A stretch of 64,000 nt of DNA from Halobacillus sp. Marseille-P3879 (GTDB lineage Bacteria; Bacillota; Bacilli; Bacillales; Halobacillaceae): assembly GCF_900240285.1 (NCBI RefSeq), contig NZ_OESS01000002.1, positions 992,001 to 1,056,000 on the forward strand, given 5' to 3'. The notes beneath the pieces were generated by a model. The model had not been told where the DNA came from, searched no databases, and worked only from the letters and a program-made list of their open reading frames with translations. This document shows, piece by piece, positions 31,481-32,087 of the stretch. Numbering within the stretch: position 1 is the first letter of the stretch; every line of letters starts with the position of its first letter. Made by a program: the position numbers and the translations under genes.

Positions 31481-31557
31481 TGGGGCGGTTGATGGGGATC
31501 GAACCCACGAATGCCGGAACCACAATCCGGTGCGTTAACCACTTCGCCACAACCGCC
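31481..31557 (-). tRNA. tRNA-His (GTG)
   Basis: A 77-nt cloverleaf GGCGGTTGTGGCGAAG with the extra 5' G(-1), anticodon GTG in ATTGTGGT, and CCA encoded. Confidence 0.97.
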
Positions 31558-31618: not shown

Positions 31619-31743
31619 TCAGCACTTGGTTTATCCAGCTTCACGGGCCAGACACTCGCGAGATAAGTCAGTCCCTTCTATGTTCCAAAGATAGGGAACT
31701 TTGCAGCGCCTGTCTTATCCGTTTCGTGTCTAAACAGGCCCCT
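31619..31743 (-). ncRNA. Structured element, unit 1
   Basis: Helices on the plus strand: 31645-31649 with 31737-31741 (GGGCC/GGCCC), 31650-31655 with 31726-31731 (AGACAC/GTGTCT), 31663-31667 with 31714-31718 (ATAAG/CTTAT), 31682-31686 with 31695-31699 (GTTCC/GGAAC), and an 8-nt apical loop AAAGATAG. The strand is given as that of the surrounding tRNA transcript. The family is unknown to me. Confidence 0.6.
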
Positions 31744-31866
31744 TCAGCACTTGGTACATCCGGCTTCATGGCTTAGATGCTCGCGTCATAAGTCAATCAT
31801 CTGAATGGTCAAAGATCAGACCATTACAGCTGCTTGTCTTATGCGAGTCGCATCTATCAAAGCCAC
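31744..31866 (-). ncRNA. Structured element, unit 2
   Basis: Helices equivalent to unit 1: 31769-31773 with 31861-31865 (TGGCT/AGCCA), 31775-31780 with 31850-31855 (AGATGC/GCATCT), 31780-31784 with 31843-31847 (CTCGC/GCGAG, not paired in unit 1; it competes for base 31780), 31788-31792 with 31838-31842 (ATAAG/CTTAT), 31804-31810 with 31819-31825 (AATGGTC/GACCATT), and an 8-nt loop AAAGATCA. The helices are kept though their sequences differ from unit 1. Confidence 0.6.
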
Positions 31867-31880
31867 TCAGCACTTGGTAG

Positions 31881-31954
31881 TAGCGGCGGAGGGGATCGAA
31901 CCCCCGACCTCACGGGTATGAACCGTACGCTCTAGCCAGCTGAGCTACGCCGCC
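31881..31954 (-). tRNA. tRNA-Met (CAT), elongator, CCA not encoded
   Basis: GGCGGCGTAGCTCAGC with anticodon loop GTTCATACC, essentially the Bacillus elongator Met tRNA. After the discriminator A the genome reads CTA, not CCA; a CCA occurs three bases further on, where the repeat block begins. The other four tRNAs here encode CCA. First gene of the operon. Confidence 0.94.
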
Positions 31955-31995: not shown

Positions 31996-32024
31996 AATAT
32001 ACCATGCTTTCAAGAAAGTGTCAA
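31996..32024 (-). promoter_or_regulatory. tRNA operon promoter, proximal
   Basis: TTGACA, 17 nt, TATATT with an extended TGG: nearly perfect sigma-A, 42 bp before tRNA-Met. Confidence 0.93.
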
Positions 32025-32058: not shown

Positions 32059-32087
32059 AATATAGCATGTAGCCTCAATCGTTTCAA
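32059..32087 (-). promoter_or_regulatory. tRNA operon promoter, distal
   Basis: TTGAAA, 17 nt, TATATT, 63 bp upstream of the proximal promoter with the same geometry. Tandem promoters are common for stable RNA operons. Confidence 0.85.

Follow-up and report, generated by a model that had tools for sequence, protein, structure and literature searches.

A covarying tandem hairpin in a Halobacillus tRNA operon is probably part of a dispersed palindromic repeat family of Bacillales

The enterobacterial repetitive intergenic consensus (ERIC) is described in a passage of PMC2229807 as an imperfect palindrome of 127 bp that is intergenic and also lies in transcribed units; the same part of that source offers ERIC and NEMIS as precedents for the use of a palindrome at the RNA level. 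Such repeats have length variants with inserts, such as the 107- and 155-bp forms of Correia (passages in PMC2229807 and PMC3049150). The BOX element of Streptococcus pneumoniae has the form boxA-boxB(n)-boxC, with a variable number of tandem structured modules (passage in PMC3049150), and the REP/RAYT repeats are palindromes of 20-40 bp tagged GTAG or CGTC (abstract of PMC3733652). Bhal-1, Bant-1 and bcr1 are dispersed stem-loop families of Bacillus genomes (passage in PMC2267715), and Bacillaceae-1 is listed in a table of PMC2864571.

We analyzed a stretch of 64,000 nucleotides from Halobacillus sp. Marseille-P3879, hereafter the window, in which two tandem units separate tRNA-Met from tRNA-His in an operon of five tRNA genes, all on the minus strand (Table 1). 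Each unit is a long hairpin interrupted by internal loops. The array holds two bodies and three heads, with a unit spacing of 125 and 123 bp. The initial annotation of this DNA had recognized two covarying units of about 124 bp, and our analysis confirms them as interrupted hairpins with real compensated changes; the sequence contains the three changed helices (outer, second, apical) and the constant ATAAG/CTTAT pairing as it claimed. Other parts of that description stand with changes. The loop AAAGAT is common to both window units but is not conserved across the wider family, and the location of the units in the tRNA operon is correct, although the head quoted on the plus strand is antisense to the minus-strand transcript. 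What had been called two strong promoters are indeed two minus-strand sites upstream of tRNA-Met, but they are promoter-like by consensus match only, and a scan of the region gave 5 promoter-like sites against 2.0 expected.

Both units outperformed dinucleotide shuffles in folding, with z scores of -4.0 (unit 1) and -5.9 (unit 2) on the plus strand and of -2.6 and -6.0, respectively, on the minus strand; 1 of 200 shuffles of unit 1 folded equally well on the minus strand. The window units matched no family of Rfam 15 up to E = 10, including Bacillaceae-1 (RF01690), in line with the earlier failure to place them in any known RNA family. They also had no match in plasmid records.

Table 1 The array in the tRNA operon (window positions) and copies of RF01690 nested in R1 at other loci (locus positions).
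Feature	Position	Strand or orientation	Remarks
R1 repeat unit 1: head TCAGCACTTGGT (31619-31630) and hairpin body	31619-31743	+ (model orientation, antisense to tRNA transcript)	R1 model match 31621-31754, 109.6 bits
R1 repeat unit 2: head (31744-31755) and hairpin body	31744-31866	+	R1 model match 31746-31877, 117.7 bits
Third head TCAGCACTTGGT, right end of array, adjoining tRNA-Met 3' end	31867-31878	+	Sequence reading
tRNA-Met (CAT), upstream gene of transcript, with the array at its 3' end	31880-31954	-	
tRNA-His, next downstream gene	31481-31556	-	
Promoter-like site TTGACA-17-TATATT upstream of tRNA-Met	31996-32024	-	11/12 consensus match only
Second promoter-like site TTGAAA-17-TATATT upstream of tRNA-Met	32059-32087	-	10/12 consensus match only
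RF01690 nested in R1	L018:1586-1652, L137:6188-6254, L175:2277-2343	Reversed relative to R1	Spanned by R1 match
RF01690 nested in R1	L273:1682-1748, L276:1365-1431, L282:1705-1771	Reversed relative to R1	Spanning R1 matches from copy survey (E <= 1e-5), not recovered in locus re-search

Copies of the unit occur well beyond this operon, both elsewhere in the genome and in its relatives, the two places where the initial annotation had proposed to look. We coined the name R1 repeat for the family, a dispersed imperfect palindrome of about 120 bp found in Bacillales, and built the R1 covariance model from 35 copies. It matched 17 places in the source genome at E <= 0.1. At E <= 1e-5 and on both strands, it found 40 copies in G007, 80 in G178 and 38 in G213. 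The copies occur singly or in head-to-tail arrays and in either orientation; three tandem units with four heads lie between atpE and atpF, the genes for ATP synthase subunits c and b, in the source genome (L003:1476-1853). A DNA search of this genome returned weaker relatives and, following the second tRNA-Met, a truncated copy; the same kind of search gave a match at E <= 0.01 in 17 of 41 related genomes. In a sample of the class, 22 of 200 genomes, the source genome included, had R1 matches. Among the matches listed from a pattern scan of named genomes, 46 of 80 loci held 86 R1 matches, all in Bacillales, with carriers such as Sporosarcina, Planococcus, Peribacillus, Halobacillus, Virgibacillus, Salirhabdus, Sediminibacillus, Jeotgalibacillus and Neobacillus; the pattern matches listed from other phyla, Paenibacillus and Alkalibacterium contained no R1 match.

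R1 behaves as a small dispersed palindromic repeat of the MITE-like kind, as four genomes each carry many copies of one hairpin unit in the range of about 100-200 bp. By description and not by alignment, it is closest to ERIC in its size, its long imperfect palindrome and its many intergenic copies in both orientations. However, ERIC hosts are enterobacterial whereas R1 hosts are Bacillales, and unlike ERIC, R1 forms tandem arrays with common heads and sets one end against gene 3' ends. The variable number of tandem structured modules is shared with BOX, but BOX is a composite in which distinct boxA and boxC flank boxB, whereas R1 arrays consist of whole palindromic units. R1 also differs from REP/RAYT repeats in its length of about 120 bp and in an alignment without such a conserved end tag. 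Bhal-1, Bant-1 and bcr1 resemble R1 as dispersed stem-loop repeats, again by description and not by sequence, and Bhal-1 (74 bp, B. halodurans) may belong to the R1 family. A search of open-licence papers yielded no named repeat identifiable with R1. We consider it probable that the two window units are copies of a dispersed R1 palindrome, an ERIC-like non-autonomous mobile element that travels as a passenger in the tRNA operon. The initial annotation had left a choice between a regulatory RNA, a processing module and a mobile palindromic repeat; the last fits best, given the dispersed copies in both orientations, the tandem arrays and the differences in copy number at the same spacers.

The pairing is conserved across many homologues. 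In the seed alignment, 25 of 32 predicted pairs had at least one double change, and pairing holds in 91.9% of the cells of alignment A2, compared with 66.7% after shuffling and 35-46% when the partners are slid. Our covariation null replays column changes on a tree and is a simplified, home-made version of the R-scape idea. Under this null, A2 (83 of 86 rows) had 13 significant pairs of 32 and A3 (83 of 84 rows) had 15 of 32. Each of these alignments, which were fitted to the covariance model, also had a single significant pair outside the structure. A structure-free alignment (77 of 86 rows), which has lower power than the model-fitted ones, gave 6 significant pairs, all of them in the structure. 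A covariation test of the kind that had been called for thus returned significant pairs, and the homologues keep their helices, contrary to what decayed transposon ends without conserved helices would look like. A sequence that covaries this strongly and is this widespread is easily mistaken for a structured RNA gene.

The repeat is placed asymmetrically with respect to genes. Neighboring ORFs of >= 80 aa were called mechanically for 116 distinct sites from fetched loci, which are not a random sample. Stop codons facing the right end of R1 lay within 4 nt of it in 28 of 49 cases. At the same distance there were none of 62 starts facing the right end, none of 73 stops facing the left end and none of 39 starts facing the left end (0/174 in total). 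The right end also lies just behind tRNA-Met. TTA stood at the right end in 30 of 49 stop-facing sites versus 5 of 49 for a control stretch, and in 26 of 62 sites with no stop facing versus 6 of 62. TTA is common even without a facing stop, so the junction might introduce or require TA(A), in which case a stop codon would be left. Short intergenic gaps may account for some of the flush placement. By eye, a hairpin followed by a run of T often precedes the left end. Placement at gene 3' ends on one side only gives a testable clue to the site choice or survival of such repeats.

Two further features of the flanks were seen. At L082 and, judging from its sequence, at L152, an R1 copy starts, right end first, a few bases past the 3' end of 23S rRNA, toward 5S in L082. 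The left flanks of L018, L023, L076, L079, L088, L128, L160 and L168 contain an upstream module that combines an exact TGTGGATAA with sequence resembling AAATTATAAAATT; by eye, at least 8 of 117 sites have this module. We take TTATCCACA to be the DnaA-box consensus and the TGTGGATAA of these flanks to be its complement.

RNA structure is expected to tolerate G-U but not A-C pairs. On the model strand, the R1 structure cells of 167 distinct rows contain 95 G-U and 199 A-C of 5028. Of these A-C cells, 81 come from two doubtful pairs; leaving those pairs out gives 89 G-U and 118 A-C of 4713. As a control, 184 tRNAs from the same loci have 205 G-U and 21 A-C of 2208 cells in their acceptor and T stems. 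In an RNA selected on one strand, G-U should be clearly commoner than A-C; on the model strand it is not, and on the complementary strand its excess is only mild. As G-U does not exceed A-C on the model strand, the pairing is not kept for that strand. Read on the complementary strand, the mild A-C excess becomes an excess of G-U. In the tRNA operon and at facing stop codons that strand is the transcribed one, and a role or weak RNA-level selection could exist there, although the copies at tRNA loci alone have 5 A-C and 4 G-U. This counts against a mobile passenger.

It also bears on the foremost alternative, that the palindrome is maintained for a role in RNA: in transcripts its stem would be cleaved by RNase III or would shield 3' ends, a use that would keep the pairing whatever its origin. 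We regard this as unlikely, though worth keeping in mind. Many copies come directly after stop codons, tRNA-Met or the 3' end of 23S rRNA and would hence be transcribed, the mild excess is of G-U on the transcribed strand, and ERIC and NEMIS provide precedents (passage in PMC2229807). However, relative to its mirror pair, G-U on the transcribed strand is far rarer than in tRNA stems, other copies are oppositely oriented or follow terminator-like hairpins, and copies are gained or lost between close species. Together, the wobble symmetry, the dispersal and the turnover argue for a mobile palindrome rather than an RNA gene.

The turnover is best seen at the tRNA spacers. Among 11 genomes of the genus, the Met-His spacer holds full R1 units in 3 and the Met-Glu spacer in 6; window unit 1 was scored for the Met-His count by the genome-wide R1 search and not by the spacer survey. 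A unit with an internal deletion stands in one more Met-Glu spacer, and short remnants were seen by eye in several others. Such occupancy within one genus indicates fast turnover. Between atpE and atpF in the same 11 genomes, R1 has three units in the source genome (G000), one in G010, partial matches of 80 nt in each of G005 and G007, and no match in the remaining seven; the sequences of seven of the 11 spacers were also read, that of G010 in part. Copy number at the same locus thus differs between relatives, as for MITE-like repeats. At the metA (Pfam HTS) locus, the gene is present in 5 of 11 genomes and the element in the source genome only, while the other four differ downstream and give no clean empty site or boundary. 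The flanks of single copies, read by eye, contain no clear target duplication. With neither a clean empty site nor a target duplication, we infer mobility from the distribution.

The survey of the tRNA spacers led us to set aside a module private to the tRNA operon. That the units process or regulate tRNA-Met and tRNA-His as a functional part of this operon would suit their position inside it, directly after tRNA-Met and behind promoter-like sites, and a similar placement recurs in the Met-Glu operon and in G213. It is nevertheless very improbable, as most copies lie outside tRNA operons and the spacers without full units have decayed copies or none; the regulatory or processing module of the earlier proposal accordingly finds no support as something proper to this operon. 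An RNA-processing effect is possible as a by-product of the array. For the mobile passenger, another difficulty comes from other families, where the same tRNA-Met is followed by two full units in G213 and by a truncated one in G136, which could also be read as an old, kept association.

That template switching keeps the pairing by copying one arm onto the other in a single step is just as hard to credit: double Watson-Crick to Watson-Crick changes outnumber one-sided ones about 3 to 1 in distant copies, but one-sided changes dominate the closest pairs (31 to 1, then 50 to 25), so that the growth of doubles with distance favors two separate steps under selection, and an interrupted helix with unpaired columns should have been smoothed out. 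One-step arm copying was set aside after this analysis of change against distance.

The mobile palindrome would then work as follows. The hairpin would be needed for the element's own copying, as single-stranded DNA or as a cruciform, and copies that lose pairing would stop spreading. The right end would tend to land against gene 3' ends, with a TA(A)-rich junction that leaves or makes a stop codon, and arrays would grow or shrink through recombination between the repeated heads. Within the tRNA operon, the array may be transcribed along with the tRNAs, tolerated as a passenger, and trimmed away.

A second hairpin family shares these genomes. Bacillaceae-1 RNA (RF01690) is, like R1, multi-copy and hairpin-forming, but it differs in sequence. 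It occurs 4 to 52 times per genome in seven genomes searched. Among 91 copies listed in three genomes, 15 lie inside R1 (6) or within 150 nt of it (9), where about 0.6 were expected, and all 15 have the opposite orientation to R1. Six loci score above the RF01690 gathering score, two of them named Sporosarcina. As Bacillaceae-1 is multi-copy and nested in R1, the doubt about the status of an RNA gene extends to this Rfam family.

We tentatively propose a wider picture. A mobile hairpin of Bacillales may join one end to the 3' ends of several kinds of gene (stop codons, tRNA, 23S rRNA), leaving or making a TAA stop on landing. It may copy itself via folded DNA, so that compensation in its arms would go from one Watson-Crick pair to another and seldom through wobble, and Bacillaceae-1 may be another mobile hairpin, nested inside the first.

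Some minor observations concern the tRNA genes and the rest of the window. After the second tRNA-Met of the source genome and before tRNA-Glu, only the first arm of the repeat is present (L002:1503-1549, 98% identity over 49 nt). The tRNA-Met of the array has CTA after the discriminator base in this genus, so CCA seems not to be encoded, and the same tRNA-Met gene encodes CCA in related genera. At 800-980 of the window, the minus strand carries tandem glycine riboswitch aptamers with scores of 42.6 and 66.3 bits.
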